Shown one piece after another: positions 13,877-30,416 of a DNA stretch of 34,515 bases. How positions within the stretch are numbered: the stretch's first letter is position 1; every line of letters starts with the position of its first letter. The DNA is from a virus, in IMG/VR virus record IMGVR_UViG_3300037840_000236, positions 1-34,515 of that record; one strand, written 5' to 3'. The notes under the pieces were generated by a model that made no database searches, was not told the DNA's origin, and worked only from the letters and a program-made list of their open reading frames with translations. Both the position numbers and the translations under genes were made by a program.

Positions 13877-14305
13877 TTACTGCACGGTGGTGGTGGGGGC
13901 GGCGGGGGCGGTGGCGTTACTGGGAAAGCCCGCTGACGGCACCTGAACCGTAGATGTCGAGCTGAATACCGACACGTTGCCTTTCGTATCAACGGTCTGA
14001 ACGGCATAGGTATACGAGGCGCCGTTCGTGAAGTTGTTTGAGGACGGGTCTGTGTACGTTAGGCCTGTTGTGGGCGTGGCATTCTCCTGCGTCCAGCCGA
14101 CAGGAGATGTGTTGGGGCACGTTGTCGCTGTCCCGCTGCACCGGAAGACGTTGTATCCCGCGATGGGATTAGTGCCAGGACTTGCAGCGCCCCACGAGAC
14201 CACGACACCATGCTGCGTTCCGTTCACTTGCGCGGTCTGTGCCTTGGCCGATGGAACTAAAACGAAAAACAGAGCTGCCACTGCGATACTGAGAATCTTT
14301 TTCAC
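13877..14305 (-). CDS. Exported fibronectin type III domain protein, 142 aa
   Basis: The GTG at 14305 opens a signal peptide (KKILSIAVAALFFVLVPSA, cleavage probably after AKA at 22). A fibronectin type III-like domain follows (about 30-121: VVVSWGAASPG, IAGYNVFRC, YTDPS, YTYAVQTVDTKGNVS). The end is Pro/Ala/Thr-rich. The mature form has two Cys (C56, C63), which could form one disulfide. FN3 domains in phage structural proteins often bind carbohydrates or other proteins. The GTG overlaps the previous stop (GTGA) and has GGGGGAAACC just before it. Confidence 0.78.
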   Translation of the reverse strand: MKKILSIAVAALFFVLVPSAKAQTAQVNGTQHGVVVSWGAASPGTNPIAGYNVFRCSGTATTCPNTSPVGWTQENATPTTGLTYTDPSSNNFTNGASYTYAVQTVDTKGNVSVFSSTSTVQVPSAGFPSNATAPAAPTTTVQ

Positions 14306-14709
14306 GGTTTCCCCCAAGTCTGTTTCAGATATCCAACTGACGAAACTTTCACGTTCGTGTAAGCCGCATCCACGGCAAACGCAGCGAACGGCGCGATCCA
14401 GAAAGCTTGGATGTGTTTGGCTGCTGGCGTTGGCGAGTAGCGATGCGAGAGATGGTTTGCCGCGATCAAAGCGGGCGAGATCTTCAGCTCGAACATGCCC
14501 TGCTTCGTACAGGTACTTGTCATGACGCCGGCCTTACGCATGTCGGCAAGACAGTTTTGCGACGTTACCGATTCGGCCGCCGCTGCGCCGATGGTTACGG
14601 CATCGATGAAGATTTGCTCTTTGTGCGTGCCGAGGAAATGGCGAATCGCACCGAGAGGCCCGGCATGGAGAGTGGGAGCGAAGAGCGCAAGCAGCAGAAG
14701 TATCGTCAT
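14302..14709 (-). CDS. Exported small protein with two Cys, 135 aa
   Basis: The start MTILLLLALFAPTLHAG is a compact signal peptide ending AxA-like at residue 16. The mature part has helical segments (DAVTIGAAAAESVTSQNC, QAFWIAPFAAFAVDAAYTN) that could insert in a membrane, and two Cys (C53, C67). No family is recognised. The ATG at 14709 is four bases after the stop of the 483-aa gene; an upstream ATG at 14730 would lie inside it. It is co-transcribed with the FN3 gene. Confidence 0.6.
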   Translation of the reverse strand: MTILLLLALFAPTLHAGPLGAIRHFLGTHKEQIFIDAVTIGAAAAESVTSQNCLADMRKAGVMTSTCTKQGMFELKISPALIAANHLSHRYSPTPAAKHIQAFWIAPFAAFAVDAAYTNVKVSSVGYLKQTWGKP

Positions 14710-14713
14710 TGTC

Positions 14714-16165
14714 CTAATATTTCCAAGCATTGAAGGCCAGTACGTCGCTTGCGGTCACACTGGAAGCCTTGAGCGTGCACGTGGTGACGCTCACGCCTGA
14801 TTGCGGGAGAGCGAGTTCGTGTCCCGAAGTTGTGTCGCTGCCAGAGCAACCCCAACCGTTTGCGGCAGCCGTTCCACCCGGTGTGATGACGAGTGTGCTC
14901 GCTCCAGTCGTTCCTGTGCAGGTGATCGAGCCTGCCCATGTACCGCCCTTTTGCGTGCTCGTTGTGAGACACGCTCCAGTGCCGGATATTCCGGCAGCGA
15001 GTCCTGTGCCTACCGTTTCGTTGGAAGTTGGTGCTCCGCTTACGGCGTCTATCGAGTTTAAGATTACCGCCGCGTTGTTGTTGGCTACCTGTAGGGCATC
15101 TCCCGATGTTTGAGTGATCCCTTCTCCTATAACGAAACTGGGATGGCTAGCTGCCGCCATGCCGTTAAAAATGCTCAGCGGACCGAAGGTTTCAATTCCC
15201 GGCGTGCAAATGCAAAGGGCTTGAGAAATGCTGCTCAGTATCGAGAACCCGTCATTGTCAAAGCCCAAGCAGAGATCGTTTTGTGCGTTTGAACCGCCAG
15301 AGGTGGCGCATATCATCTGTCTGTTTTGAGTTAATCCATTCGAAGTGTAGTAGGCGTGCACATCGATTTGGCATCCTGCGTTTGAAGCGCCTGCCGCCTG
15401 ATTCGCAACGCAGCCGAGGACCTGATTTTGCAAACTAATCGGCGATCCCGGCGGGGTTGGCCCATATCCGGTTCTCGAACCGGAAAGAATGTATTGATGC
15501 CCGTCGTAGAAGAACAAATATGGTTGCGGTGGATTCGCCACAATTTCTCCGCCACCCAAGGCGCGTCCATCATCATCGGTGAGTGCGGTTATACCGGTCC
15601 CGTTCACATTCAACGTGCTCGCTCCGCTGTTCGCGTGGGCAGGGGTAAACAGGAATCCGCAGCCTATTGTTAAAGCGGCGCAGCCGTTCGTAAACGGAAC
15701 CGTTGTGACATAGGCGTTCGCCACTCCGCTATCGGTATTGGCAGTAGGCCAAGTAGGGGTCGTGCCTCCAGCGCTCCCGCTGTTCGAAACCCCCGTCCCC
15801 GTCATAATGGAAACCTGCACCGCCCCGCTCGAATAGCTGGTTACATCGGCGCAGACAACCAAGAATCCATTGGGCGAGTAGCTGGCGGTCCCGGCCGAGG
15901 ATTGCGTTCCCACCGTGGTCCACGTCGATCCGTTGTTCGACATGCGCACGGTCACGGTGGCGGAGAATGTTCCGCCCAAGTTCACCGTGGTTGTCGAAGC
16001 GTTCTGCGGAAGAAGCTGCAACAGATACGAATTCGCCGTGGAGCAAGTGCCCGCATCCTGCACGTTGATGTTGCCAACCAAAGGATTTGTGGGCACGGCA
16101 GTTTGGGCAGAAATCGCCCTTCCCGCGGCAAAGAGCAGGAGAGCCAAAACGATTAGTTTTCTCAT
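14714..16165 (-). CDS. Fibre-like exported protein with 14 Cys, 483 aa
   Basis: A signal peptide (MRKLIVLALLLFAAGRAISA, cleavage at 20) precedes a Ser/Thr/Gly/Asn-rich beta-type sequence. The last 70 residues (KGGTWAGSITC, TPGGTAAANGWGC, then VSVTTCTLKASS) match a C-terminal module often found in phage fibre proteins. The mature protein has 14 Cys, an even number. The initiator region (AACCCATGAR) lacks a Shine-Dalgarno site and matches that of the 971-aa gene at 25 of 31 bases. Likely a tail fibre or adhesin; export is inferred from the leader. Confidence 0.72.
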   Translation of the reverse strand: MRKLIVLALLLFAAGRAISAQTAVPTNPLVGNINVQDAGTCSTANSYLLQLLPQNASTTTVNLGGTFSATVTVRMSNNGSTWTTVGTQSSAGTASYSPNGFLVVCADVTSYSSGAVQVSIMTGTGVSNSGSAGGTTPTWPTANTDSGVANAYVTTVPFTNGCAALTIGCGFLFTPAHANSGASTLNVNGTGITALTDDDGRALGGGEIVANPPQPYLFFYDGHQYILSGSRTGYGPTPPGSPISLQNQVLGCVANQAAGASNAGCQIDVHAYYTSNGLTQNRQMICATSGGSNAQNDLCLGFDNDGFSILSSISQALCICTPGIETFGPLSIFNGMAAASHPSFVIGEGITQTSGDALQVANNNAAVILNSIDAVSGAPTSNETVGTGLAAGISGTGACLTTSTQKGGTWAGSITCTGTTGASTLVITPGGTAAANGWGCSGSDTTSGHELALPQSGVSVTTCTLKASSVTASDVLAFNAWKY

Positions 16166-16195
16166 GGGTTTACTTTGGCGTGCTTGGAAGTTTCC

Positions 16196-18025
16196 TCATT
16201 GTCCGATTACCGTTGTCGATTTCTGAGCTTCGATGCTCTTGGTGAAAAAAGGTGCTGGAGCTGGAGCGGGTCCTCCAGCACTTGCGCCGATCTGGAAATT
16301 GTAGAAGGACACTGGGCTGTCGGTGAGTCCGTTGCCTCCTGCCACGGCGTTTAACTGCTCCGTTGAGGACACTGTGAGCGCCGTCGTGTATTTCGTCCCG
16401 GTTGTGCAGTCGGTTCCCGATCCGTTCGTCACCGGAGTCGTTGTACCGATCGTGTAGCAGATGACCGTCGCCCGAGCATCCATCGCCGCCAATGTCGCTG
16501 ATTGAGTGGTCGCGTAAAACTGACTCTTGAGTGACGAATAAGGCGTGCCTACTGTCGATCCGTTGATGTCGTTGGGGTGCGGATAGGGCAAGTCTTCGTA
16601 GGTCAAGTGCATCGCACCGGAGACACATTGATAGAAGACATTCCCGTTGCCCTGATCGGTGGCGACGTACCCGAACTGATTCGTACAGGACGAAGGCATA
16701 CTGGCAAATGGGCCGATGCCGACGCCGTGTGTTCCGTCGCCGTGCCCTGAGTTCGCGGTAGCGGTGTAATACCAATCGCGGTCTTGAAGCACGTCGTGGC
16801 TCACTACGTTGCACACACAACTGTAATTGTCGTTGGGAACCGGAGGAGCAGCGTCAGCCGCGCCACCAGCACAACCGCTCGTCGTGTCGGTGCAGACGTT
16901 CCAATTAACCAGCGGGAATGAAGCCTGTGCACTGGGTATCCCGGTATCGGTGCCACGCCCGATCTGATCACGAGCGGGCCAACCATCGTTCGTGATGTGG
17001 CTTTGGTTGCCGTCTACCGACTGCGTACCATCGTCGTAGGTGCCATAGCCATTGCCAGCCTGTCCGATGCTGCCTTGATCGCAGCGGTAGCAAGTGACCT
17101 CGAACGGATTCGGTTCAGGACCAAGAGAATCGTTGTAGTTGAATCCCGATCCGCCGCGATACCAGAGAGCACGCTCGGACTGGTTCCCGCCAGTCGCCTG
17201 ACAAGAGAATGTATTGTTGTTGGTGTTGAGCTTATAACCGGAGCGTGATACTGAGTCGTAGCCGTGGTTGAAAACTCCGCATGAACCGGTCCCAGTGGAT
17301 GCCCCGGACCCTTGCGTAAAGGTGGAGTGCCGATACTCTACTGACCCTCCTGCCACTTCGTCGTTCTGATCCTCATGGTTAACCCAGCTCCATGTATTGT
17401 TCTCGGAGTAGGCCATATTCAGCGTTCCCGAGGGGTCGGTCAGCTGCCATGCGTTGAAACCGTTCGTTTGCCCGGCAGCGCCGCCGGTTTCCGAACTGAG
17501 GTATCGCTGCGTCATCGAACCAATGTCCACATAGGTATCATGGTCGGTCAGGCAGTTAGACGTGCCACCGCAATCTGTGGCTCGCTCGCTGTTCGTGGTA
17601 GAACCGATGAACTTGTCATTGTCCCAACGAACCGTGCAGCCAAAGCAACTGTCGGACTGCAACATTCCAGAAGAAGCGTTGTTCGAGGTCACGTCCGTAA
17701 TGCCAGTAGTAGTGACTCGCCAAGTGATGTTGTTACAGTTACTCGTGTTCCCGAAAATCGCTATGTTCCCGCTGCGGGTCAGAACCGTCGAGGTCGCTCC
17801 GGCGCCCACAATGGTCAGGTTGTAACAGAAATCAATTTCGGTCGTGTAGTTCCCGCTGGTTCCCGAAGGGATGACGAGAGTCACGGCGCCAGCCGGGGAA
17901 CCGATCAAAGTAAAACACGCTTGGACGTCACTCTCAGACACGCTTGCGGCTGTGTACGTTGAGCCGACTTGGTTGCAAGCCGCGCTGCAACACATCGCGC
18001 AAACGAGCAACTTAAACAACTCCAC
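16196..18025 (-). CDS. Exported beta-helix-like protein, about 609 aa
   Basis: The leader VELFKLLVCAMCCSAAC suggests a signal peptide, possibly a lipoprotein-type one with a weak lipobox. The body has Asn/Gly/Thr/Ser-rich strands typical of right-handed beta-helix proteins (NLTIVGAGATSTVL, FGNTSNCNNITW, SVEYRHSTF and later turns). Such folds occur in tailspikes and polysaccharide lyases; no catalytic residues can be assigned. The mature chain has 19 or 20 Cys. Start choice is uncertain: GTG at 18025, TTG at 18019 (GAAGG upstream) and TTG at 18058 (GGAG upstream) all fit. Confidence 0.68.
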   Translation of the reverse strand: MELFKLLVCAMCCSAACNQVGSTYTAASVSESDVQACFTLIGSPAGAVTLVIPSGTSGNYTTEIDFCYNLTIVGAGATSTVLTRSGNIAIFGNTSNCNNITWRVTTTGITDVTSNNASSGMLQSDSCFGCTVRWDNDKFIGSTTNSERATDCGGTSNCLTDHDTYVDIGSMTQRYLSSETGGAAGQTNGFNAWQLTDPSGTLNMAYSENNTWSWVNHEDQNDEVAGGSVEYRHSTFTQGSGASTGTGSCGVFNHGYDSVSRSGYKLNTNNNTFSCQATGGNQSERALWYRGGSGFNYNDSLGPEPNPFEVTCYRCDQGSIGQAGNGYGTYDDGTQSVDGNQSHITNDGWPARDQIGRGTDTGIPSAQASFPLVNWNVCTDTTSGCAGGAADAAPPVPNDNYSCVCNVVSHDVLQDRDWYYTATANSGHGDGTHGVGIGPFASMPSSCTNQFGYVATDQGNGNVFYQCVSGAMHLTYEDLPYPHPNDINGSTVGTPYSSLKSQFYATTQSATLAAMDARATVICYTIGTTTPVTNGSGTDCTTGTKYTTALTVSSTEQLNAVAGGNGLTDSPVSFYNFQIGASAGGPAPAPAPFFTKSIEAQKSTTVIGQ

Positions 18026-18038
18026 CTTCAGCAGACGC

Positions 18039-18782
18039 TTAGTTGAACGTGACAGCAAACCCGACTCCCGTCTCGCTCACGGGTGATGTCATCGTTCCTT
18101 GCACTGTGCCGGTAGCGGATAACTGCTTCCACTCCACCGCACAATCGATCTGCCCGGACGTTCCGTTCGATGTCCAAAAGAAATTGCTCCAGCCTGAGCC
18201 CACCGTCCATGCGCCCCCGACTGTGGCGTTGTTCTGCGCACATGTGACAGCGGCGGCGATTTCGCTTGCGGTGGTTGTTGTGCCGGTAGTGCCCGTCACT
18301 ATCGCGGTTGTCGCCGTATAAGTCCCCGGAGCGTTCTTATCGACCGCTGGTGTCGCGCTCGGCGTAATCACAATCACCGCGCCGGCCATATCGTTCGCCG
18401 TGCCTCCGGTCCGTGTAGGCGTGAACACTTCCGCCGCATTCGTCGTGCCCATAGTTCCGCAAAATGATTCGGCATGGGCGGTTGAGCCTACGCTTGTTGG
18501 ACCGGAGCACGCTGTCAGAGAATCGGAATTGCTATCGGTGCAGCTAAAAGTGTCGGCTAGGCCGGTTTCGTTTGATCCGACAACACAGACAGCGAGATCG
18601 CCAGCAGTGACGGCTATTCCCGTCATGGCGCAGCTCGCACCGCCTGTCGTACAACCCTGTTGACTATGAAATGTGCCGGTGATTCCTCCGCCACCGCCCG
18701 ATGTTGGCGTCGCCGGAATTGTCGGGACATACTGATAGAACGGCAGAATCAAGAACAGAAGTTTTGCGAGAAAGACGTTCAC
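18039..18782 (-). CDS. Exported structural-like protein with 8 Cys, 247 aa
   Basis: A hydrophobic N-terminus (MNVFLAKLLFLILPFYQYVP) looks like an uncleaved or poorly cleaved leader, followed by a Gly-rich linker. The body is Ser/Thr/Gly-rich beta sequence (GDLAVCVVGSNETGLADTFS; TNAAEVFTPTRTGG; MAGAVIVITPSATPAVD) with 8 Cys and an Ala/Val end. The pattern resembles phage head-fibre or cell-surface domains of unknown function. The GTG start directly follows the stop of the 971-aa gene. No catalytic motif is seen. Confidence 0.62.
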   Translation of the reverse strand: MNVFLAKLLFLILPFYQYVPTIPATPTSGGGGGITGTFHSQQGCTTGGASCAMTGIAVTAGDLAVCVVGSNETGLADTFSCTDSNSDSLTACSGPTSVGSTAHAESFCGTMGTTNAAEVFTPTRTGGTANDMAGAVIVITPSATPAVDKNAPGTYTATTAIVTGTTGTTTTASEIAAAVTCAQNNATVGGAWTVGSGWSNFFWTSNGTSGQIDCAVEWKQLSATGTVQGTMTSPVSETGVGFAVTFN

Positions 18783-21698
18783 TTAATTCGCCTGCACCGC
18801 GATCAACCGAGGGAAGGTCACGTCGGCAGCATAGAAGCGCGCATTCGTCGCAGTGTCAGTCGCGCGGCCTATCGTGATCTGCATGGTCGCGCCGGCGACA
18901 CAGCCGGTTACATCGGTTGAGTTCATCTGCACATTCGAGTTCGACCAGAATTGATTTGCAGTAGTGTTGAGCGTCACCGTGCTCGAGCTGTGTGCCGCAT
19001 TCGCCGCAACGTCATCCGTCGTTGATCCATCGCCCTTGTAGCAGGCGACTTGAATCGAAGGGATGATCGTGTGTCCGCTCGTTGTGTCGGTTGAAGCGAG
19101 ATAGAAGCGCACGTAAGGATTCGTCCCGGTATCCCAGTCTTCAGGGACCGTCACTTGGAACGTGGCGAAGGTCGCTGCCGTATCGGTGATAGCAATGAAC
19201 CCGCCAAGATTGTTAGTCCCTGCTCGGCAGGTGACTGTACCGCCTGAACCGATCGACCAGCCAGCGCCCGCCGTCGCGTTGTTGCAATTTGCCGCTGGAA
19301 CGTTGAACCGCTCAGGCATGTCGATATATGAGCAGGTTTTCGAAGCGCCGCTTGAGACGCATAGTTGCTTTGCTGCCGAGGCTGCGGACGCTGCCGTGAC
19401 GGTGTTTGTGGACTCATCGCCATTCGGCAGTGCGGCATTGCAGCCAATACCGGTTGTCGTGGACCACGTGAGCATGCTGGGGCAAGTTGAACCAAACGCC
19501 GCGAACGTGGGCATTTTTGCTGTCCACCAATGACCCGGCGCGGTTGTGGAATCCTGATAGACGAACGCAAAGAAGTTGTTAAGGAGTGTGCCAGACGCCG
19601 CACTGTCGATCAGGTCCGATGCGGCTGCGTTTGGCGTGATTGTTAGCGTCGCGCCTGCGATGTCCTGGATGGCGAATGGAAGATTTGACGCGAAGGTCGT
19701 AGCCACGGCAGGCAACGCAAGAGCCGTGCCCGAACTCCATTTGATATAGTTTGCGCGATCGGTGACCAGTAACGTAGCTGGGTTGGTCGCGTCCACCGGG
19801 ACGCCAGACAAGCCCCAAACAGGAGCTGCTGCAGTCGGCCCGCTCGTAGGAGTTGAGATCAGCGTGCAAGGAACGCTTACGGCAAGCGTGCACCCAGCAA
19901 GCCGCGCGGCTGCGGGAGTAGCATTCTCGTAGATAATGTCCCCCAAGGTTGTCATGGGGTTCGAGAAGCCAGAGGGGCAATTCTGAAAACTTGGGTCTGT
20001 CGTAGTGGGAGCCGAGGCTGCGGACATGAAGCACTGCGATGGCGTAGCACTCGGCGCCGCATCACCGAATGCGCTCGTGCCTTCTCCTAGCAACACACCG
20101 TGAGCCGCGAAAGTCGCTGCGCCAGTGCCGCCTCCCGGTACGGTTAGATCAGATCCGGCCGTAATCTGGAAATCAACGTTCGAGCCGCTTGGATTGATGG
20201 CGTTGAGCGTGACACCAAATTGCGCCGGGCCATTCTGGAAGTTCACGGGCGAAGTAAGCGCGCTTCCGCCGTTGACGGTGATATTCGTTCCGCCACTGCT
20301 TGGAAGACAGTTCCCTCCCGCGCTCGTGAGGCACGAAGGCTGATGCGTGCTGTTATTGGCGTACCAACGCTCAAAACCGGAAGCTGGATTCGCGGGAGCT
20401 GAAATCTCGCTTACGTCGGCGTACTGAAGAAGATCAGTCGGACTCTCGAGGTTGATTACTCCACGCGAACCCGCCGAGCCGCTGCCACCGGTTCCTGCGA
20501 GCCCGGCGATGATATTGACGTTTGCTCCGTTCGCATTGTTCGCCGTGCCATTGGACGATCCTCCGCTGCCGCTTTCAAGTAGGAGCTGAGCACCGGAGCC
20601 CCCTTGCGCGTTCGTGCCTGTTCCGTTTCCTCCGTTGCCAGCGAATATTTGGACAGTTGAGCCAGCACCCGCCGTGCCTGCCGCATTTGAACTGTTCTGT
20701 CCAGAAACGGGGAAAACTTTGAACATGGTCCCGACCGATTCGCCTTGTGCGTTGGACGTGGTTCCAAGCGATGGCCCGATGATCTGAACTTGACCGAGCG
20801 TAGCGGAAGAGCCTGAGCCGCCGCTGCCTGGCTGGCCGACCTGCAGCACGACATTGCCGCCGGACCCGTTATTTCCAGTTCCGTTGCCACCTCCGCCAGT
20901 TCCGCCTCCAATGAGAACTTGCCCTCCGGATCCGCCATTGGCATTCGTGCCGGCTCCAGCTCCGCCGACGCCGCCAAAGATGTTTGGCGCGCCGCCCGGG
21001 CCCCCTGTGCCTGTCGCATTCGTCGTCGCGCCGCCGGTTTGTCCAAACACGTTGAGAACATTGATGCCAGACGTGCCAGGCGTCGTGCTTACGCTGTTGG
21101 GCGCAACGGCGCTCAACTCTAGACCTAGATTGGAGCCGAGCGGATAAATGAAAACACCATCGAAGGTCGGTTGTGCGAGTCCGGCTGCGGTGGAATCAAA
21201 AGTCGGCTGCGTGCAGGTGATCGTCGGCACAACCAGCGTGCAGGAGCCGCTCATGGTGAAGCCGCCGAAGAAGCCGCCGTTGTTGTACTGAAGCTGGCCG
21301 TTTGATCCGCCAGGGTTCCCGGCACTGCCGCCGCTAGCTTGAAATGAGTAGCTGTGGGAAGTGATGCCGAAGCCTGAGATTGTCACCACATAGTTTCCGG
21401 AGGCGACGTAAACGTTGTTGATGTTGCCGTTCGCGTCGGCATTCGTCGGATTCGTGATCGCTGGGCCGGTCAGCGTGATGTTGTTGTAAATCGTCGCGAG
21501 CGGCGAGCAGATAGCTCCGTCTTGCGGGACAACCGTTGTGTTGCAGATGGTTACCGTAGCTTTTGGTACTGGCGCGACGTAGACGGTCGCTCCATTCACC
21601 ACTTTTTGCGCTGGGACCGGAGGCAGCGCGAAGCCTTGCGCTGAGCACACCCCTGCGAGCGCCGTGAACATCAGCGCCAAGAGAATCAGTTTTTTCAT
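18783..21698 (-). CDS. Large tail-fibre-like protein with signal peptide and Gly-rich region, 971 aa
   Basis: A signal peptide (1-20, ending VCSA) is followed by an Ig/beta-type region, then the phage-fibre motif NGQLQYNNGGFFGG (residues 133-146). A Gly/Asn/Ala-rich block lies at about 225-420, like collagen-free fibre shafts. Later segments carry known fibre patterns (GGGTGAATFAAHGVLLGEGT; MTTLGDIIYEN) and a C-terminal beta domain (VTFPRLIAVQ). The mature chain has 18 Cys. There is no Shine-Dalgarno site before the ATG. Most likely a host-recognition fibre; the leader is unusual for a virion protein. Confidence 0.8.
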   Translation of the reverse strand: MKKLILLALMFTALAGVCSAQGFALPPVPAQKVVNGATVYVAPVPKATVTICNTTVVPQDGAICSPLATIYNNITLTGPAITNPTNADANGNINNVYVASGNYVVTISGFGITSHSYSFQASGGSAGNPGGSNGQLQYNNGGFFGGFTMSGSCTLVVPTITCTQPTFDSTAAGLAQPTFDGVFIYPLGSNLGLELSAVAPNSVSTTPGTSGINVLNVFGQTGGATTNATGTGGPGGAPNIFGGVGGAGAGTNANGGSGGQVLIGGGTGGGGNGTGNNGSGGNVVLQVGQPGSGGSGSSATLGQVQIIGPSLGTTSNAQGESVGTMFKVFPVSGQNSSNAAGTAGAGSTVQIFAGNGGNGTGTNAQGGSGAQLLLESGSGGSSNGTANNANGANVNIIAGLAGTGGSGSAGSRGVINLESPTDLLQYADVSEISAPANPASGFERWYANNSTHQPSCLTSAGGNCLPSSGGTNITVNGGSALTSPVNFQNGPAQFGVTLNAINPSGSNVDFQITAGSDLTVPGGGTGAATFAAHGVLLGEGTSAFGDAAPSATPSQCFMSAASAPTTTDPSFQNCPSGFSNPMTTLGDIIYENATPAAARLAGCTLAVSVPCTLISTPTSGPTAAAPVWGLSGVPVDATNPATLLVTDRANYIKWSSGTALALPAVATTFASNLPFAIQDIAGATLTITPNAAASDLIDSAASGTLLNNFFAFVYQDSTTAPGHWWTAKMPTFAAFGSTCPSMLTWSTTTGIGCNAALPNGDESTNTVTAASAASAAKQLCVSSGASKTCSYIDMPERFNVPAANCNNATAGAGWSIGSGGTVTCRAGTNNLGGFIAITDTAATFATFQVTVPEDWDTGTNPYVRFYLASTDTTSGHTIIPSIQVACYKGDGSTTDDVAANAAHSSSTVTLNTTANQFWSNSNVQMNSTDVTGCVAGATMQITIGRATDTATNARFYAADVTFPRLIAVQAN

Positions 21699-21782
21699 GG
21701 GTTATCTGAGCGAAGCTCTTGGGAGCCAAAAAGGGAATGCAGTAGAATATAGGCCGAGGCACTGACGCACGGAGGTAAGCCA

Positions 21783-22349
21783 ATGCCCAAAAGAATTTAC
21801 CAACACAATAAGGGGAAAATCCTCCGCATGAAAAGGCATGCGGTTGTTCAGCCGCTTAGTCAACCTTATCGCCTTATCCCCCTTACGCAAGGGCACAATG
21901 CCATCGTCGATGTGGACGACTTTGAGCGGCTCTCGCAGTGGAATTGGGCGGTAATAAAAGGAACGCGTAGCCTTACTAATTATGCCTATCGCTCGGAGGG
22001 CCATGGGGGCCGCAAGATCTTTATGCACAGGATCGTCCTCGGACTCAAGGATGCGGAACTGGCCGACCATATAAACAAAAACGGCCTTGATAACAGAAAA
22101 TGCAATTTGCGTAAGGCCACAGTTTCGCAAAACTGTCAGAATAGACGGACTCCCAAGAACAACACTTCTGGGTTTAAGGGAGTATCCCGGATTCGCAAGA
22201 CGGGAAAATGGGCCGCAGCAATTGTTTTTAATCACGAGTGCCGAAACCTTGGACATTTTTGGAATGCGGAGGAAGCCGCCAAGGCCTACAACAAAGCCGC
22301 TCTCAAACTGCATGGAGAATTTGCGGTTCCTAATGTTCTCACCTCGTAA
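21783..22349 (+). CDS. HNH endonuclease with AP2 domain, plus strand
   Basis: The 188-aa protein carries an NUMOD-like opening (LIPLTQGHNAIVDVDDFERL), an HNH core (residues 81-110: MHRIVLGL, then ADHINKNGLDNRKCNLR), and an AP2 domain (128-182: TSGFKGVSRIRKTGKWAAAI, EEAAKAYNKAALKLHGEFA). This AP2-HNH arrangement is a known homing endonuclease type. It lies on the strand opposite to the fibre genes, with GGAGG before the ATG, and its 3' end overlaps that of the tail-fibre gene by 11 bases. It is probably a mobile insertion between two fibre genes. Confidence 0.93.
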   Translation: MPKRIYQHNKGKILRMKRHAVVQPLSQPYRLIPLTQGHNAIVDVDDFERLSQWNWAVIKGTRSLTNYAYRSEGHGGRKIFMHRIVLGLKDAELADHINKNGLDNRKCNLRKATVSQNCQNRRTPKNNTSGFKGVSRIRKTGKWAAAIVFNHECRNLGHFWNAEEAAKAYNKAALKLHGEFAVPNVLTS

Positions 22350-23577
22350 TGACACAGTCCACTTCCGCAGGAGTCGAAGCAGTTGCCAAAGCGCCACTCA
22401 AGTTCGAAATCGTCACCACGATATTCGTCGTTGTCTTGCTGGCGATCTGATAGACCCACGGATTGCCGGCCGCCGCGGCAACGACCGTGCACGTTGCGGC
22501 ATAGGATGTGTTGGCTTCTGTCCTGAAAAGGGGAACGGTGACTGAGCACATCGCATACGCTGTGCCGGCGGTTGGGCAAGTTCCCGCCGAGGTCGTTGTC
22601 CCGCCGTTCGTGTCGAAGACGGATGGGCAGCCTGTAGTGGTGGTGCCGCCGTTCGCATCCGTGCAAACAATAGGCTGGCTCGCGGCAACCGTACCTGCAG
22701 TCTGTAGGAGTGTGTCCGTTCCCTGAAGCCCTGTGAGGGTTGCGCTTCCCGTACCACCTTGAGCTAGCGGAAGTGGCGCAGCAAGGTGCGTCGACGTAAC
22801 CTGGTCGGAAGTATTGATGTCGATGCCTGAGTCCACAAGTTGCGCGGCGGTGCCGGCGTTGTTGCACACTTTCCAGCGCGTCGCTCCTGAGTCGGCCCAA
22901 ATCTCGGAAAATCCGGCCAGGCAAACAGGACCAGCGACGAAGGGCTCTTTGAAAGAGCCAGCGCCCCAGGACAGGAGGTTATTTGAATCGAGAGTCCAGC
23001 AAAGGTTCGCGCTGCTGGATGCGTTTCTCCAGCAAGCCGAATCTATCGACGCGAGACGCAATATGCCGGAAGTGGCGGGGTTTGTTGTTCCTGAAATGAA
23101 GGTTCCAGTGAATGTGCTGGCCGAAGAAGAAGCGACCGGGCTTCCTGGAACTTGGTCCGAGACCGCTAAGACGTCTCCGCTGGCACATGCGCTGCCGTCG
23201 TTGGCGGCACACCAAACAAACTTATAAAACGCGGTGTTCGTGAGCCAGATCGATGCGCGGCCAGTTGCGTCGAATGGAACCGGATTCGGATTCTGCGTGA
23301 GTCCGGTTGAATCTGTGAACGTCGCCTGCTGCGTGGTCGTCCCAGCGACATATGAATATAAAACTCCGGTCGTCAGAGGCTCGCCGATCGCGTTGGTGAA
23401 GTAGACGCTCCCGACGCCCATCATGGGAGAGACGGTCTGTGCTTTGAGTTGGCCAGGTATCAAAAACAGCGCAAAAAGGGCTATAATGACGGGCAATGAA
23501 CGGATGGCTATTCTTCCTTGTGGTGCTGCCGATTCTTGGATTTGGCTCCTATTACTACGTCCGGTTTGTGTTCTCAT
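22339..23577 (-). CDS. Tail fibre/spike protein with head-binding-type N-terminus and signal peptide, about 412 aa
   Basis: After a basic n-region and hydrophobic stretch (SLPVIIALFALFLI, cleavage after LKA at about 46), residues 50-122 match a common phage fibre N-terminus: VYFTNAIGEPLTTGVLYSYV, TTTQQATFTDSTG, NPVPFDATGRASIWL. Such domains attach fibres or spikes to the tail. The remainder is Ser/Thr/Ala-rich, includes the fibre pattern APLPLAQGGTGSATLTGLQG, and has 12 mature Cys. The start is uncertain: ATG 23577 lacks a ribosome site, TTG 23610 lies three bases after the upstream stop, and an antisense frame overlaps this region. Confidence 0.75.
   Translation of the reverse strand: MRTQTGRSNRSQIQESAAPQGRIAIRSLPVIIALFALFLIPGQLKAQTVSPMMGVGSVYFTNAIGEPLTTGVLYSYVAGTTTQQATFTDSTGLTQNPNPVPFDATGRASIWLTNTAFYKFVWCAANDGSACASGDVLAVSDQVPGSPVASSSASTFTGTFISGTTNPATSGILRLASIDSACWRNASSSANLCWTLDSNNLLSWGAGSFKEPFVAGPVCLAGFSEIWADSGATRWKVCNNAGTAAQLVDSGIDINTSDQVTSTHLAAPLPLAQGGTGSATLTGLQGTDTLLQTAGTVAASQPIVCTDANGGTTTTGCPSVFDTNGGTTTSAGTCPTAGTAYAMCSVTVPLFRTEANTSYAATCTVVAAAAGNPWVYQIASKTTTNIVVTISNLSGALATASTPAEVDCVITR
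23482..23487 (+). promoter_or_regulatory. TATAAT -10 box before a small plus-strand frame
   Basis: A perfect -10 hexamer TATAAT in the context GGGCTATAATGACGGGCAATG lies eight bases before an ATG at 23496. The same GGCTATAAT and near-identical spacing to an ATG occurs at 30633-30651. No convincing -35 box is found 17 bases upstream. A short-leader or leaderless start is possible. Confidence 0.35.
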
Positions 23578-23681
23578 TTTTGGCAGCGTCCTACGTTTGG
23601 CTCGTTTCAAAACTCACTGGCTCGCCGATAAGTCTTTCAACGATCCCTTCGGAGCGGATGCCGCGATCGCCGAGGCGATAG
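23496..23681 (+). CDS. Possible plus-strand membrane protein, 61 aa, antisense to a fibre start
   Basis: The frame begins MNGWLFFLVVLPILGFGSYY and continues FVFSFLAASYVWLVSKLTG, a convincing pair of membrane helices with aromatic belts, then a basic tail. A TATAAT box lies eight bases upstream. It is antisense to the start region of the fibre gene and the end of the ejection-protein gene, and antisense hydrophobic frames can arise by chance opposite charged sequence. If real, the fibre start must be nearer its signal peptide. Function unknown. Confidence 0.33.
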   Translation: MNGWLFFLVVLPILGFGSYYYVRFVFSFLAASYVWLVSKLTGSPISLSTIPSERMPRSPRR

Positions 23682-25560
23682 GAAAAGGACTCCGTGCCGG
23701 CGCGGGTGGCGCAACTGTCACTTTAGGATTCGAAGATTCAGGCAAGAATGAAAGCGGATCGCGCGGCATGCTCATCTTGGCCGCAGCGCTCATCTTCGTT
23801 TGGTTCCAAAGACTGAGCTGGCAGAGGCTCGATATGTTGGCGCCCGTCCCCGAAGGATTTGGATCGTAATTGATCCGGTTGGCGAGATCCGCTTTGAGAT
23901 ACAACTCCTTGACTGCGTCCGGATCGAACAGGGCTTTGAGATACGCGTCGCTGTACCCACCAAGTCCATCGTGCCCAATCCTGAACCTGCTTTTAGCGAT
24001 GTCCTGAACCACCTGGCGTTGCAGCGCATCGATCGCCGGACCATCGTTAGTAATGTTGCCCTTCGCGTCGCGCACTGTTGTCTCATTTCGAAGAGTCTCG
24101 ATGTCTGTCGCAGGAGCATTTTCAAGCGAGGTAACTATCCTTGTCGGATCGCCTTGTCGAATGGCTTTGTACAGAACGCTGTTCCTGTCTCCGTACTTGG
24201 TCGAGTAATCTTTCCATCCAGAGTTGGCGGAGCGCCAGTTGTCCACGTCCCGAGGGCCAGCGCTTGCATCCATCGCTGAATCGACGACTCCCGACATTTG
24301 CTTGAAGATCGCTTCAGTCTTGTCCGGCAGTCCCTCGGTATCGCCGAGATTCCGAAAGAAAGAACGAAGCTCAATTCCTTGCGCGAATGTCGGCTTGAAT
24401 CCTTCCGGTCTTCCGGACAACAAGTCTTCGACTACCGCTCTCATGCTGCGCGGCGTCTGCGCCAAAATTTGTTCCTCCGCTCCCATGGGCAAGCCGCCTT
24501 TTAGTTGGTTCCAGGCGTTTGAAATGGGAGTTGGGTTTACCGGACGATCCATCAAATAGTCGATTTGCTTGTATCCGTTGGAAGCATTCTCGTGCGAGAC
24601 GCTCTTGGCGGTTTTGACTGTGTCCTGAATCGTCTCACCGGCTTGCTCAGTCGATAGGCCGCCACGCTTCGGATCCACCGTGTCCATGAAATTGTTGACC
24701 GACTCACCGAACTTCGCTTGTTGCTCCCTGAGTGCCGCCGTAAGTTCCTTACCGCCGACGGCGGCAGTTGTGCCGGCCTTTTGTAAATTCTGAGCCATCG
24801 CGTCTTCAGTGGCTTGCCCCGGAGTAAGTTTGATTCCCTCATCGGAGGCGTGCGTGATGACTTCGCGGGGTGTGTTGTTGAGAGCGGGCTGAATCTGGCC
24901 GGCAGGGCGAGCCGCATCGGCCTCAGGGGGCGTCAGCTTTCTCCCCAGAGCCTCTTCGACAGTCGTGGCTGGAGATAGCCGGCTCCAAATGGGCAATTTC
25001 CCCAATAGCGGAACGCCCATCGCACCGGCGACATTTCCGACAGTGCCCGCAAGAACGGCCTGATCAGGAGTCGCGCCCACCTCTTCCGCAGTTTTCTTGG
25101 CTCCATATCCTGCAACTGCTCCGCCCGCGATGCTTGTGAGCGCTTTGACCGGAGAAAGAGTCAGTTCCGTCGCCGTGAACGGTGCGGTTGCCGCAAGGGC
25201 TGTCGGGCCGACGGCGGAGAGGATTTCATTTGTTCCCTTCGCGACATCGCCCTTCGCGATATCCTTTCCGCCCGTGACGGCAAGGCCTCCAGGCTGCCGC
25301 TCTAGCGACATCATGTCTGGCGTATTCGATTTCGCCATTTCAACTGCGCGCGCGCGGAATTGCTCGTCGGTTTCACCAGGTCGCTGCGTGAGGTTTCCGC
25401 CTGGAGCCTGATACGTCGCCACGTCCTGGTTGACGTTCTGTACGGGACCGCCAGGGAATTGCTGGTAGGCGCCGACATTGGAACTAACCGGCAGAGGAAC
25501 TGGAGTCCAAGCAGATGCGGCCGGATCCGGAACTGGCGTCCAGCCCGTCGCGCCACTCAT
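23614..25560 (-). CDS. Ejection-type internal virion protein (P22 gp16-like position), 648 aa
   Basis: The long protein has a Pro/Gln-rich N-terminus, a segment of Gly/Ala helices that could insert in a membrane (about 120-190, ALAATAPFTATEL; SIAGGAVAGYGAKKTAEEVG; GTVGNVAGAMGVPLLG), then a soluble helical body. Third of three consecutive large genes after the gp10-like hub, it occupies the place of gp16 in the P22 order. Such proteins leave the virion and form a channel during DNA ejection. Only one Cys is present. The ATG overlaps the preceding stop as ATGA. Assignment is by position and composition. Confidence 0.62.
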   Translation of the reverse strand: MSGATGWTPVPDPAASAWTPVPLPVSSNVGAYQQFPGGPVQNVNQDVATYQAPGGNLTQRPGETDEQFRARAVEMAKSNTPDMMSLERQPGGLAVTGGKDIAKGDVAKGTNEILSAVGPTALAATAPFTATELTLSPVKALTSIAGGAVAGYGAKKTAEEVGATPDQAVLAGTVGNVAGAMGVPLLGKLPIWSRLSPATTVEEALGRKLTPPEADAARPAGQIQPALNNTPREVITHASDEGIKLTPGQATEDAMAQNLQKAGTTAAVGGKELTAALREQQAKFGESVNNFMDTVDPKRGGLSTEQAGETIQDTVKTAKSVSHENASNGYKQIDYLMDRPVNPTPISNAWNQLKGGLPMGAEEQILAQTPRSMRAVVEDLLSGRPEGFKPTFAQGIELRSFFRNLGDTEGLPDKTEAIFKQMSGVVDSAMDASAGPRDVDNWRSANSGWKDYSTKYGDRNSVLYKAIRQGDPTRIVTSLENAPATDIETLRNETTVRDAKGNITNDGPAIDALQRQVVQDIAKSRFRIGHDGLGGYSDAYLKALFDPDAVKELYLKADLANRINYDPNPSGTGANISSLCQLSLWNQTKMSAAAKMSMPRDPLSFLPESSNPKVTVAPPAPARSPFPIASAIAASAPKGSLKDLSASQ

Positions 25561-27104
25561 TGCGTCTTCTGCTCCTGCTTTTCGAGTGTCCAACCTTTGG
25601 GAAGCTCTGTGCCGGCGGGCGCGCTTTGGATAACGCCATTCGTATCGCGCGCAAAGATGAGCGCCGGTGCCCCGCTCTTCCCTGTCACCTTATCGAGCGT
25701 CGTTATCTCGCCCGTTTTCGTCATCGCGGGAGTTTGCGACGGGTCGATCGAGTGACCTTTCGCGATAAGCTGCGAACTTATGATCGCGCGGTTGTACGCA
25801 GCGTCCGTCACAATGTCCATCAGCTGGTTGCCTTCTTTGGCGAGTTCTGGTGTCAGCTTGCCAGCCAAAGACTTCGTGGCCCATGCATTCCAGCGCGTCG
25901 CCCAATCCGGAGACACACCGGCTGCCTGTGCTTCTGCCGGCGAGATGCGATTGATTCCGCCAGCGTGATTGATGCCGAGAACTTCCATCGTCGGAATCAT
26001 GTTCGTCAGCAGCGCGTTTCCGTCGGCGCCGGCGACGATCGAGGCCTTTGTTTGATTCGCCTGCGCGAGTGCGCCAGCGTAACCACGTTGTGGATCCGTC
26101 CAGATTTTCTCGTTGGCGGTCAGGCCGACCTCGCCGAATTTGTTGCCCATCATCGCCTTGGCTTGAGCGAGCGTTGCTTGCTTCATGCCTTCAGACTGCT
26201 CGGCAGAATCGGCGCGAGACTGAACTTTTTGCAGCGTTTCCCAATCTGGAGCGCCCTTCAGTTCATTGACGAATGCAGCCTTCATCGGATCCGGGAGAGC
26301 CGTGTAGGAGTTCACCGTGTCGGTCGCGGTCTTCAGTTGATCAGCCGTGGGAGCTGCGGCGGAGCGAGTCGCCTGCGTCGCTCCCGCCTGCTCTTTCAGC
26401 GCGTCTGCTTCATCTTTGTGATAGCCAGCGATGCTGCTCTCGACCTTCGCCAGGTTGATCATGGACGGTAGATGGTCCAGAGACGAGTTCAGAAACGCCT
26501 GCAGTTCTTGCGGAGGAATAGACTCTGGAGGATCTGCCGCAAGAGATTGCTTAAGTTGGTCAAACGCAGGTTGCGCCTTTGAGACAGGCATATCGAGAAT
26601 CGACGCCATTTTCGATTGAAGATCGTCGATCGTTTTCTGATATGCGGTGATTTTGTCGGAGGTGGCAGCGGCGTTGTTCTTGGCTGTTTCCGAGACTTTC
26701 GACGAACGATCTAGGAATCCGCTTACTACGGCGCCCGCGTCCTCGGGCAGCACCTTCCCGTATTTTCCCGACATGAGTTCAGACATCATCGCGTTGGGAT
26801 CGAAGCCTGGCGCGTCGCTGGACGCGGCATTCGTAGTAATCGTCTTCGCGAAATCGGGATCGGCCCAGGCCTTGGCCATCGCTTGCTGCGACGCGAGTTT
26901 GGCTTGCGCCTGTTGCGTCGCGATCTGCTGTTGCTGAGTAACCTGCTGCTCTTGTGCGGCCTGCTGCTGTTTGATTTGAAGGTCCAGAGGCAACTGCTGA
27001 GATTGCCCGAGCATGTTCTTGAGCTGGACCACTTTCGCGTAGTTCGCGAGGAGGTCCGGTTGTTGAATTCTGTAGTCCGGCAAAGGACTGGCTGGAATTG
27101 GCAT
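25557..27104 (-). CDS. Ejection-type internal virion protein (P22 gp20-like position), 515 aa
   Basis: The sequence starts MPIPASPLPDYRIQQPDLLA; residues 40-75 are an extreme Gln-rich coiled coil (QQQAAQEQQVTQQQQIATQQ) and the rest is Ala/Gln/Lys-rich helix with no Cys. This is the profile of phage ejection proteins. It lies between the gp7-like gene and the gp16-like gene, as gp20 does in P22. The DYRIQQPDLLANY opening resembles many podophage internal proteins. There is no clear ribosome site; the ATG follows the upstream stop by three bases. Confidence 0.65.
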   Translation of the reverse strand: MPIPASPLPDYRIQQPDLLANYAKVVQLKNMLGQSQQLPLDLQIKQQQAAQEQQVTQQQQIATQQAQAKLASQQAMAKAWADPDFAKTITTNAASSDAPGFDPNAMMSELMSGKYGKVLPEDAGAVVSGFLDRSSKVSETAKNNAAATSDKITAYQKTIDDLQSKMASILDMPVSKAQPAFDQLKQSLAADPPESIPPQELQAFLNSSLDHLPSMINLAKVESSIAGYHKDEADALKEQAGATQATRSAAAPTADQLKTATDTVNSYTALPDPMKAAFVNELKGAPDWETLQKVQSRADSAEQSEGMKQATLAQAKAMMGNKFGEVGLTANEKIWTDPQRGYAGALAQANQTKASIVAGADGNALLTNMIPTMEVLGINHAGGINRISPAEAQAAGVSPDWATRWNAWATKSLAGKLTPELAKEGNQLMDIVTDAAYNRAIISSQLIAKGHSIDPSQTPAMTKTGEITTLDKVTGKSGAPALIFARDTNGVIQSAPAGTELPKGWTLEKQEQKTQ

Positions 27105-27107
27105 AGT

Positions 27108-27980
27108 CTATTGGGGTGCCGGAATCGCGGTCGATCCGCCCGGCAGGTAGTAACCTGGATTATTCGGATCCGCTGGCAAAGCATTGCTTGAGCCGCCATA
27201 GGTCAGCGACGTCGGACTAACTCCCGCCATCGGTGCCTGCGTAGCCGTCACGTTGTTCGCGTTGTTCGTCATCCCGTAGAGCTGCGCCATGCTCGAAAGA
27301 TTTCCGAGTGCCCCGCTCCAGGCATTCGCCGAGCCAATCGTGCCAGCAGCCTGCGCTGCGCCTTCCTGACCATAGAGCGAAGCGATGTCTCCGCCGAACT
27401 GAGCCGAAGTCTGACCAGCTCCTTGCGCCGCCTGCAGGCCCTGACCAGACAAGCCCATTAATCTCGAATACGTATTGTTCTGATTGTTCAAGAACGTCTG
27501 GTAGGCGTTTTGGTACTGCGTAAGCGCATTGTTGAACGTGTTCTGATAGTTCGTCGACGCAGTGCCCTGGGCGTAGTTGTTCATGTCGGCGAGCGTCTTG
27601 CCTGAAAGCAAGCCACCTTGCCCCGCCGCTGAATTTTGGACTGCGTTCAAGCCCTGGTTGAGTTGGAACTGGTAGCCAGGAGTCTGCGCGGCCTGTGCCG
27701 CAGTTGGAGCGGTGAATGCTTGCGTCCAGGGCGTGAGCAATCCTTGCCCTGGCGTGCCGAGCATCTGAGAAAGCGTCCCGGTTGCCGCTGAGCCGGCCTG
27801 AAGGTACGGCGAATAGTTTCCGAGCGCCGTATTTTCCTGCTGCTGAAGTTCTTGCTGGGCCTTTTGCTCAGCGGCGATCTGCTCTGAGGCTGCACTATTC
27901 GCAGCGTTAGATCCTAGAAGGCCACCGAAGATCGAGCCAACTCCACTGACGATGCCACCAATTGCCTGTCCTATCGGCAT
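27108..27980 (-). CDS. P22 gp7-like DNA transfer (ejection) protein, 290 aa
   Basis: An N-terminal Gly-rich hydrophobic stretch (AIGGIVSGVGSIFGGLLGSN) is followed by a coiled-coil segment and repeated helical motifs: FTAPTAAQAAQTPGYQFQLN, QNSAAGQGGLLSGKTLADMN, TYSRLMGLSGQG. This is a widespread podophage ejection-protein pattern, the internal DNA-transfer protein that leaves the head first. There are no Cys. The ribosome site AAGGAG lies seven bases before the ATG, and the start overlaps the end of the GNAT gene by ten bases. Confidence 0.8.
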   Translation of the reverse strand: MPIGQAIGGIVSGVGSIFGGLLGSNAANSAASEQIAAEQKAQQELQQQENTALGNYSPYLQAGSAATGTLSQMLGTPGQGLLTPWTQAFTAPTAAQAAQTPGYQFQLNQGLNAVQNSAAGQGGLLSGKTLADMNNYAQGTASTNYQNTFNNALTQYQNAYQTFLNNQNNTYSRLMGLSGQGLQAAQGAGQTSAQFGGDIASLYGQEGAAQAAGTIGSANAWSGALGNLSSMAQLYGMTNNANNVTATQAPMAGVSPTSLTYGGSSNALPADPNNPGYYLPGGSTAIPAPQ

Positions 27981-28336: not shown

Positions 28337-28878
28337 CAAAACTCGCTCACCATCAAATTGCTGCCATTGATCAAATTCAGCGCGTCACCGACGGGCCCGG
28401 AGATCGCGATGTAATAGCGATACTGCGCCGTTGCCGAGAGGCCCGAATCGATCACCGACAGCGTTGCTGGCGTATTCACTCCGGCCGGAAGCGATCCTCC
28501 GCCAAATGAATCGCCGCCCACCACGACGTCACCAACGTTTGGCGCGGCGCCATTGGCCGGAATTGGTCCCGCAGTTCGCATCACGAATACTTGGTACACA
28601 CCGGCAGCGCTTGCCTTGAGCGTGACGCGCGCCTGAACCTGCGTCTCCGCATATTTGGCCGGTATGAGCGCGCCCGTTCCGATGCCAGTCGATTGAACCG
28701 CGCCATTGCATACAACTGCCGTCGCGTTCGTGGAGGCTTGAACGCGATTGTTGAGCGGCCGCGCGATGACGTCATCGATCGCCTGAAGGAATTGCGTGCG
28801 CTGAAAGCCGGAGCCGTTCTTTTCCCAGTCGGTTGGCTGGATGTTCGGCAAAAGCTGCTTGCGAGCGGTGTTGGCCAT
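28336..28878 (-). CDS. Virion-module protein of unknown function, 180 aa
   Basis: It begins MANTARKQLLPNIQPTDWEK; the body after residue 60 is beta-rich with Gly/Ala/Val/Thr (YQVFVMRTAGPIPANGAAPN, VVVGGDSFGGGSLPAGVN) and ends LMVSEF. It has one Cys. In the P22 order this position would hold the tail needle or a neighbouring small protein, but the length and beta content do not allow naming it. The start ATG shares a base with the gp10-like stop (TAATG) and has GGAAG upstream. No signal peptide is present. Confidence 0.65.
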   Translation of the reverse strand: MANTARKQLLPNIQPTDWEKNGSGFQRTQFLQAIDDVIARPLNNRVQASTNATAVVCNGAVQSTGIGTGALIPAKYAETQVQARVTLKASAAGVYQVFVMRTAGPIPANGAAPNVGDVVVGGDSFGGGSLPAGVNTPATLSVIDSGLSATAQYRYYIAISGPVGDALNLINGSNLMVSEF

Positions 28879-30416
28879 TATTGCAACTTCCGAAATTGCT
28901 GCGACAGTCTTTCGTAACTCTGTTCAGTCGGCGAGATGAACGCGTCACTAATTCCCCATTTAATGGCATCGCTGACCGTCACCCTGAACGTCCACTGGCG
29001 CGCTTTGCCAAGCCGACGAATCACAGCACGCGTCTTGAATTCGCCCGCTTGGCCGCACGCGATCTGCGCATTGATTGCCCAGGTCTTACCGAAGTCCTTC
29101 GACACCGACAGCATCGCGTACGGATCGCGCGGCTTGCCGAAGCCATCGAGCAACGGAGGCTGCGGGCCCATGCCTGTCTCGAAATCAACCTGGAATTCGT
29201 CTATGAATGTCCATTTCGATTCGGTTGAAACCGTGGGTCCTATACGAGTTCGAATGATCGGCATGCTCAAAACGGGCGAGAGCATTTCGGAAAAATAGCT
29301 TACGTTCATCGAGTAGACTGTTCCGCTCGCGTAATCTCCCACCAGGTGCTGGCCGAAATTGTAAGTGTGGCAACGCATCCGATGCGCTTGCTGCTGGCCA
29401 GCGATAAGAGAAGATCGACGATGCCAAAAGCCGAGATCGAGATCGTAGGCCCAAGTTGCATTCGCTGTCGGAAAGCGAAGGACATAGAAATTGTGGCCCT
29501 GGTCCTGCATCGCCAAACCTTGCGCGTCGGAGATTACGTTCTGGCTCATCCAGTACTCAAAGGCGTGATCCGAGATCCTCTGCGGGATGAATCCATTCGC
29601 CGCAAATGCCACGCCCGCGCCGCGCTCGTCTCCGCCAAGCCAACAAACAGTGGTCCCGCTCGCGAGCGCGACTCTCACGACCGAGAACTGCGCGGCGATA
29701 CCGACCTCCATGAATCCACCATTGGCGACTGAGAACGGGAAAACAGGATTGCCCGCGTTGTAGTAAGCGACCGCACGCTTGCCTCCGAAGACCCACAGCA
29801 AACGGTTCGTTGCGATGAGCGACAGCAGCGCGTCGGAGTAAACTGACACCTGCGATACCGACAGCCCCGGCCAGTTCGTTGCGTCTTCTGCATTCGATAC
29901 GAAGAAATCGTTGGCGTTGGTAAGTGCGATGAAAAAGCCGTCCAGGTAATCGACCATCAGAACGCCGTTGGGCTGTCCAGCGATGGCCACATACGAATTC
30001 GTGACGAGAGAAAAGACGGTCAGCGTTCCGCCGCTGCAGATGAGAAGTTGCGAAGGGTAAGCGCCGCCAGTTGCGCCGCCTGCCACCATCGTTACGGGCA
30101 GGCCATCATCGATGATGTTGTTGTTTGGCGCGCTGGCCGGGCCATAGTCGGCAACCGCAGCATTCGCAAGAGTCTCGAAAAGATGCGTTCCCGCAACCCA
30201 AAACGTGCGGCCGTTCACGGTGCAAGCGCCGCGCGTTGAGGGAAGGTTCGGAGCGAGAAGGCAGAAAAACTTCAAGCCAGGTGCGGGCATCAGGCCGAAC
30301 TGCGTGCGGCCGCCGGGCGATTCAACTTGCTCGTTGTACCAGTTGAAAAGCTGCTCGGCGTCCATCAGGGGATTCTGGCTTGTGTAGTTTCCTGAGTTGC
30401 AAAAGCCGAAGCGCAT
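28878..30416 (-). CDS. P22 gp10-like packaged-DNA stabilisation protein (tail hub), 512 aa
   Basis: The pattern NWYNEQVES....G.....MPAPGLKFF, then VDYLDGFFIAL, DFFVSNAEDATNWPGLSVSQ, LLWVFGGKRAVAYYNAGNPV, FPFSVANGGFMEVGI and CWLGGDERG, fits P22 gp10-type hub proteins that close the portal after packaging and attach fibres. Beta-propeller-like blades are expected for the family. Length (512) is close to gp10 (about 472). GGAAG lies upstream of the start. It has seven Cys. No membrane or export signal, as expected of a virion core protein. Confidence 0.82.
   Translation of the reverse strand: MRFGFCNSGNYTSQNPLMDAEQLFNWYNEQVESPGGRTQFGLMPAPGLKFFCLLAPNLPSTRGACTVNGRTFWVAGTHLFETLANAAVADYGPASAPNNNIIDDGLPVTMVAGGATGGAYPSQLLICSGGTLTVFSLVTNSYVAIAGQPNGVLMVDYLDGFFIALTNANDFFVSNAEDATNWPGLSVSQVSVYSDALLSLIATNRLLWVFGGKRAVAYYNAGNPVFPFSVANGGFMEVGIAAQFSVVRVALASGTTVCWLGGDERGAGVAFAANGFIPQRISDHAFEYWMSQNVISDAQGLAMQDQGHNFYVLRFPTANATWAYDLDLGFWHRRSSLIAGQQQAHRMRCHTYNFGQHLVGDYASGTVYSMNVSYFSEMLSPVLSMPIIRTRIGPTVSTESKWTFIDEFQVDFETGMGPQPPLLDGFGKPRDPYAMLSVSKDFGKTWAINAQIACGQAGEFKTRAVIRRLGKARQWTFRVTVSDAIKWGISDAFISPTEQSYERLSQQFRKLQ

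Follow-up and report, generated by a model that had tools for sequence, protein, structure and literature searches.

The spikes of tailed phages are taken to fold and to dock in the reducing cytoplasm, and in P22 the tailspikes are the last components to be added to the particle, a step that can also be carried out in vitro. Known counterparts of the proteins considered here are P22 gp9 and the tailspikes of the cyanophages Pam1 and Pan3, with which they share an N-terminal head-binding domain, variable C-terminal parts and a genomic context of gp4, gp10 and ejection genes. Known P22-type tailspikes begin directly at this domain, whereas those analysed here first carry a predicted cleavable leader and are cysteine-rich with even counts. 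Export of virion proteins is familiar from the filamentous phages, whose pIII and pVIII pass through Sec before assembly and whose pIII contains disulfides, but these phages assemble by extrusion through the membrane and are unrelated to the dsDNA tailed phages. Structurally, P22-type spikes sit outside a tail made of gp4 and gp10 (PMC3741392). Disulfides also stabilise the tail of the tailed Agrobacterium phage Milano, although there they link subunits of a contractile tail, and the text of that report makes no use of the term signal peptide (PMC10811340). A further parallel comes from Tunturi_1 and Tunturi_2, two podoviruses with 63 kb genomes isolated on Tunturiibacter, in which, as in the present locus, Sec leaders and high, even cysteine counts mark the genes for the tail spike and for a virion structural protein; the main text of the paper that describes them does not use the term signal peptide (PMC11924767). 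In the open-access literature we found no published description of signal peptides on tailspikes.

The window (the whole stretch of DNA analysed) is a 34.5 kb IMG/VR virus contig with a P22-type late block on its minus strand, and its relatives point to a host among the Acidobacteriota. The block runs from the coat gene through a gp4-like adaptor, a gp10-like closure protein, an acetyltransferase and three ejection-type proteins, with a fibre cluster next at 13877-23577. Genes are named here by their lower coordinate, and the block includes:

33684..34514, minus strand: major coat protein (phrog_283, E 6.1e-34), truncated by the window end
31130..31939, minus strand: gp4-like head-tail adaptor, a leaderless core protein (phrog_12985 and a weak phrog_637 match)
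28878..30416, minus strand: gp10-like head-closure protein, a leaderless core protein (phrog_578, E 1.2e-75)
23614..27980, minus strand: ejection-type proteins 27108, 25557 and 23614, all leaderless, with 0, 0 and 1 cysteines respectively

The protein encoded by 27108 matches the DNA ejection family phrog_598 (E 1.2e-28), and 25557 and 23614 are ejection-type by position, size and composition. In the window, as in its relatives, gp4-like adaptor, gp10-like closure and ejection genes are thus encoded beside a head-binding-domain protein. The low cysteine content first noticed in the leaderless core proteins was reproduced on recounting (0 in 25557 and 27108, 1 in 23614 and 28336, 7 in 28878).

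Eight other genes of the window were candidates for export-type leaders:

32803..33666, minus strand: coat-adjacent leader protein, cleavage between MHA and QQ, 4 mature cysteines (phrog_1101 tail protein domain)
22339..23577, minus strand: tailspike-like protein with a leader and a head-binding domain, 12 mature cysteines (HMM, PDB profile search, Foldseek)
23143..23439, minus strand: head-binding domain of the 22339 tailspike, with hairpin cysteine pair 76/84 (profile search, cysteine pairing, AF2)
18783..21698, minus strand: large fibre-like protein, leader MKKLILLALMFTALAGVCSA before Q, 18 mature cysteines (leader scan and cysteine count)
18039..18782, minus strand: cysteine-rich protein (8 cysteines) with a hydrophobic N-terminus (borderline leader, rejected by the rule-based scan)
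16196..18025, minus strand: secreted-type fibre, leader VELFKLLVCAMCCSAA before C (weak C-terminal CHB_HEX_C_1/Fn3_assoc match)
14714..16165, minus strand: leader protein, MRKLIVLALLLFAAGRAISA before Q, 14 mature cysteines (leader scan and cysteine count)
14302..14730, minus strand: small exported-type protein, 2 cysteines (leader scan and cysteine count)
13877..14305, minus strand: exported-type Fn3-like protein, leader VKKILSIAVAALFFVLVPSAKA before Q, 2 cysteines (Fn3 match below the Pfam cut-off, E 2e-5)

A rule-based Sec/SPI scan, which looks for a positive n-region, a hydrophobic h-core and an A-X-A site, accepted the leaders that the sequence-only reading had proposed for 13877, 14302, 14714, 16196, 18783, 22339 and 32803. 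The eighth candidate, 18039, has a hydrophobic N-terminus (VNVFLAKLLFLILPFYQYVPTIPA before TP) but lacks a strict cleavage site after the core. In related podovirus loci without the trait, the same rule let through 11 genes out of 1062 (1%), and among the 169 shadow ORFs of the window it let through 2. In the window it accepted 7 of 38 genes (Fisher p = 8e-7), a value that is inflated, like those for cysteine parity below, by kinship among the sequences. We therefore regard the leaders as real features. Likely starts for three of the genes lie downstream of the first possible start codons, at 14305 (GTG after GGGGG), 18025 (GTG) and 33666 (ATG after AAAGGAG).

Recounting also bore out the mature cysteine numbers first reported for these proteins (2 in 13877 and in 14302, 14 in 14714, 8 in 18039, 18 in 18783, 12 in 22339 and 4 in 32803), including the ambiguity of 16196, which has 19 mature cysteines, or 20 if cleavage falls between SAA and C. 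That the leader proteins are fibre-like holds for some more than for others: 22339 has a tailspike head-binding domain, but a search of the small protein 14302 for a fibre domain found none. Short leader proteins with even cysteine counts, comparable to 14302, are also found among the leader genes of locus L008. The C-terminal CHB_HEX_C_1/Fn3_assoc domains suspected in 16196 recur in gp17 of Tunturi_1, there above the Pfam cut-off. Searches of phage-collection proteins with 18783 and with the proteins of three relatives gave no useful match, and a counterpart of 18783 with a leader, a similar N-terminus and 14 cysteines occupies the matching place in a Bryobacterales MAG contig (L174 11258).

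The identity of 22339 rests on its mature N-terminus. The leader is encoded at about 23440-23577, with predicted cleavage between LKA and QT, and a profile built from the first ~90 mature residues and their relatives matches the head-binding domains of the Pan3 (9vyg, 9vyh) and Pam1 (7eeq) tailspikes in a PDB profile search, with E values from 1.7e-12 to 7.9e-11 (best values 1.7e-12 for Pan3 and 1.7e-11 for Pam1). In the Pan3 alignment, chain residue 3-4 corresponds to profile position 4-6. The AF2 model is confident over approximately residues 13-100, with pLDDT of about 71-87 over most of 21-100, and Foldseek with the modelled domain returned the tailspikes of Pan3, Pam1 and P22 as top matches. 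Beyond this domain 22339 is not conserved and is poorly modelled by AF2. PHROGs and Pfam give no head-binding-domain name to the protein, whereas the PDB profile search and Foldseek do. In IMG/VR, relatives were recovered with a profile alignment, neither gp10 nor 22339 having retrieved any when scanned as a single protein. On these sequence and model comparisons, 22339 is a predicted tailspike with a P22-type head-binding domain at its mature N-terminus.

An HMM of the domain found 144 ORFs in 143 loci. After de-duplication there were 101 leaderless proteins, with the domain within a few residues of the initiating methionine, and 17 with a signal peptide directly before it. Placed on the model, the mature N-terminus of the leader group, as given by predicted cleavage, has a median offset of 0, compared with +1 for the methionine of the leaderless group. 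In all, the distinct leader-bearing head-binding-domain proteins number 19, six of them from Acidobacteriota genomes. The coat-adjacent 32803 family behaves likewise: wherever the N-terminus is readable, 15 other distinct proteins keep both the leader and an even cysteine count (4, 6 or 8); in leaderless phages the family has weak partial matches, all of them without a leader. That scan used a closer subset of the family alignment, the mixed alignment being more divergent. In both families the leader is missing from homologues that would need no export and is conserved where present.

The trait seems to be confined, within the sample searched, to phages of Acidobacteriota. Among 18 genome matches, all four from Acidobacteriota had leaders and none of the 14 others did. 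A set of 396 Acidobacteriota genomes added two further leader copies, together with a distant match that lacks a leader and a weak, spurious one, and in 398 Pseudomonadota genomes none of the matches (7 genomes besides the known centre) had a leader. One contig, from the Bryobacterales MAG, shares the gene order of the window, and in a 6.4 Mb Acidobacteriota contig a prophage-like segment runs from leaderless genes with zero cysteines into leader genes with 8, 2 and 24. Each of the four Acidobacteriota genomes searched for them contains DsbA-family and VKOR-family matches. Mapped onto a domain tree, presence of the leader takes a minimum of four changes, compared with 17 in shuffles, and well supported branches compel only one of them. 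The window and its Bryobacterales relative cluster with a different leaderless subfamily than do the other leader proteins and use a different cysteine pair; tree and pair geometries together hint that the leader may have arisen more than once.

The cysteines follow the leaders. Of 16 complete leader tailspikes, 15 have an even count (binomial p = 2.6e-4, again inflated by kinship), as against 32 of 66 leaderless homologues with non-zero counts, and cysteine density is 1.70 per 100 residues in the former and 0.43 in the latter. Across 16 phage loci, non-zero counts are even in 36 of 38 leader proteins, and among the leaderless proteins encoded alongside them in only 46 of 89 (Fisher p = 1.4e-6, with the same inflation); the 36/38 includes window 3713-4951, a false leader call from an internal start, and becomes 35/37 without it, and one of the two odd counts among the 38 turns even at a better cleavage site. 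Exceptions to evenness are an L170 protein with 3 cysteines, gp16 of the Tunturi phages with 1 and the ambiguous 16196. In the window alone, seven even counts of seven would arise by chance with probability 1/128, and the comparative set removes most of the doubt that this figure leaves. Within the domain itself the cysteines form pairs in three geometries, 25/82, 76/84 and 21/24, and 90 of the 101 leaderless domains have no pair. The 25/82 pair comes with a loop insertion missing in leaderless forms, and 76/84 is the pair of the window and its Bryobacterales relative. Such gain of paired cysteines in three geometries is what selection for disulfides would be expected to leave.

Cultured phages display the same pattern. 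In Tunturi_1, leaders are found on gp12 (20 cysteines), gp13 (10), the annotated tail spike gp14 (20) and the annotated virion structural protein gp17 (32), and on none of the core proteins checked. The same four genes have leaders in Tunturi_2, whose gp17 has 34 cysteines: compared with gp17 of Tunturi_1 (L203 19474-23028), the Tunturi_2 protein (L230 18902-22744) has a 96-aa insertion that holds exactly two. In the stretches read of Tunturi_3 and of the siphovirus Tunturi_4, which infect the same host genus, the fibres have no leaders; phages of Acidobacteriota therefore do not all share the trait. The comparison with related phages that the sequence-only reading had called for turned up both conserved leaders and cysteine pairs, and its suggestion of an oxidising compartment for the fibre proteins is well supported by homologues, parity, covariation of cysteine pairs and a cultured relative. 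What is confirmed, at the level of sequence, is an unusual trait of a known protein family in short-tailed viruses of soil Acidobacteriota.

We consider it probable that the adhesins of these P22-type podoviruses are made as Sec precursors, oxidised in the periplasm and docked at lysis. Tailspikes and accessory fibres would be exported across the inner membrane, signal peptidase would cut the leader just before the head-binding domain, and the mature spike would fold in the periplasm with intramolecular disulfides made through host DsbA and VKOR. Meanwhile a DNA-filled, tail-complete but spikeless particle would be built in the cytoplasm from the leaderless, cysteine-poor proteins, and the break of the envelope at lysis would bring spikes and particles together, the spikes docking last. 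Export and oxidation of the leader-bearing spikes are well supported by the comparisons above, from which we infer leader cleavage, oxidation as an event and docking at lysis. Because P22 spikes lie outside the tail and are added last, spikes waiting in the periplasm could dock once lysis mixes the compartments. Siphoviruses have to complete the tail tip before the tail; the leaderless fibres of Tunturi_4 agree with this and, as one case, lend the proposal weak support. The balance tips slightly towards a whole class of tailed dsDNA phages whose virions are made across two compartments, with cytoplasmic particles and disulfide-locked, Sec-exported periplasmic tailspikes joined only at lysis.

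Of the three options first offered, periplasmic maturation, surface display and decoy adhesins, the first is the best fit for true virion tailspikes: a head-binding domain opens the protein, and its N-terminus after predicted cleavage coincides with that of leaderless virion tailspikes. An alternative that we regard as unlikely, though deserving of attention, is that the exported proteins are not virion components but periplasmic or surface decoys, or superinfection blockers, with captured fibre domains. Export as such is well supported and agrees with this, and lambda Lom is a precedent for an exported protein encoded in a tail-fibre region. A lone gene with leader and head-binding domain also lies among host core genes in an Acidobacteriales genome (L164 9989-11719), and at least this one leader-bearing domain may therefore have no place on a virion; the gene stands beside a methyltransferase-like gene, with ispH-, recN- and tol/pal-like neighbours (judged by eye). 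Against decoys, the proteins keep a virion head-binding domain with its native N-terminus, there are several leader genes per phage within the late block, and gp14 and gp17 of Tunturi_1 are annotated by homology as tail spike and virion structural protein. Moreover, neither the window nor Tunturi_1 has a large leaderless adhesin, so that decoys alone would leave the virion without receptor-binding proteins.

It is improbable that disulfide formation waits for lysis and an oxidising medium, with the leaders serving some other end. This could hold for the tails of Milano, which are disulfide-linked with no reported signal peptide (PMC10811340), but the Milano disulfides are structural links across the whole tail, and here cysteine enrichment is restricted to leader proteins while the core proteins are cysteine-poor. 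We give still less credence, and regard as highly improbable, a hydrophobic N-terminus that is a virion anchor or trimer-core segment of a protein that stays cytoplasmic: the leader calls do come from rules and not from a trained predictor, but the segments have Sec n-, h- and c-regions with mostly a site between A and Q, leaderless homologues dock without any such segment, and even cysteine counts track the leaders. Barely credible is a scheme of two forms, one exported and one made in the cytoplasm from an internal start that alone builds virions, since, although an ATG or GTG codon lies close to the mature N-terminus in some of the 17 leader genes, none of the 17 has a Shine-Dalgarno-like site there (the main starts have one in 11 of 17) and evenness extends over the whole mature protein.

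If periplasmic maturation with docking at lysis is correct, exported disulfide-bonded spikes would represent a different assembly route for dsDNA tailed phages and would explain how such phages can carry cysteine-rich adhesins, and the spikes of infected cells could act outside before lysis. Tunturi_1 and Tunturiibacter form a cultured pair with which the proposal is testable now. A leader directly before a head-binding domain is also a sequence mark that may help to assign soil virus contigs to Acidobacteriota hosts.

Some further features of these genomes are worth recording. A GNAT acetyltransferase-like gene separates the gp10 gene from the ejection genes in the window (27971-28339) and in L174 (5192-5545), L203 (32875-33216), L008 (11805-12481) and L019 (8775-9441). 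In the last two it is directly preceded by an acyl carrier protein-like gene, a pairing that suggests acylation of a virion or ejection protein. Short repeats of the form SAVYSAVGSAVDSAV follow one another over a long run in the protein encoded at 3713-4951 of the window. Finally, an FtsK/terminase-like ATPase gene (3-1136, with phrog_2666 and phrog_1358 matches) lies at the far end of the contig, distant from the late genes and truncated at the window edge.
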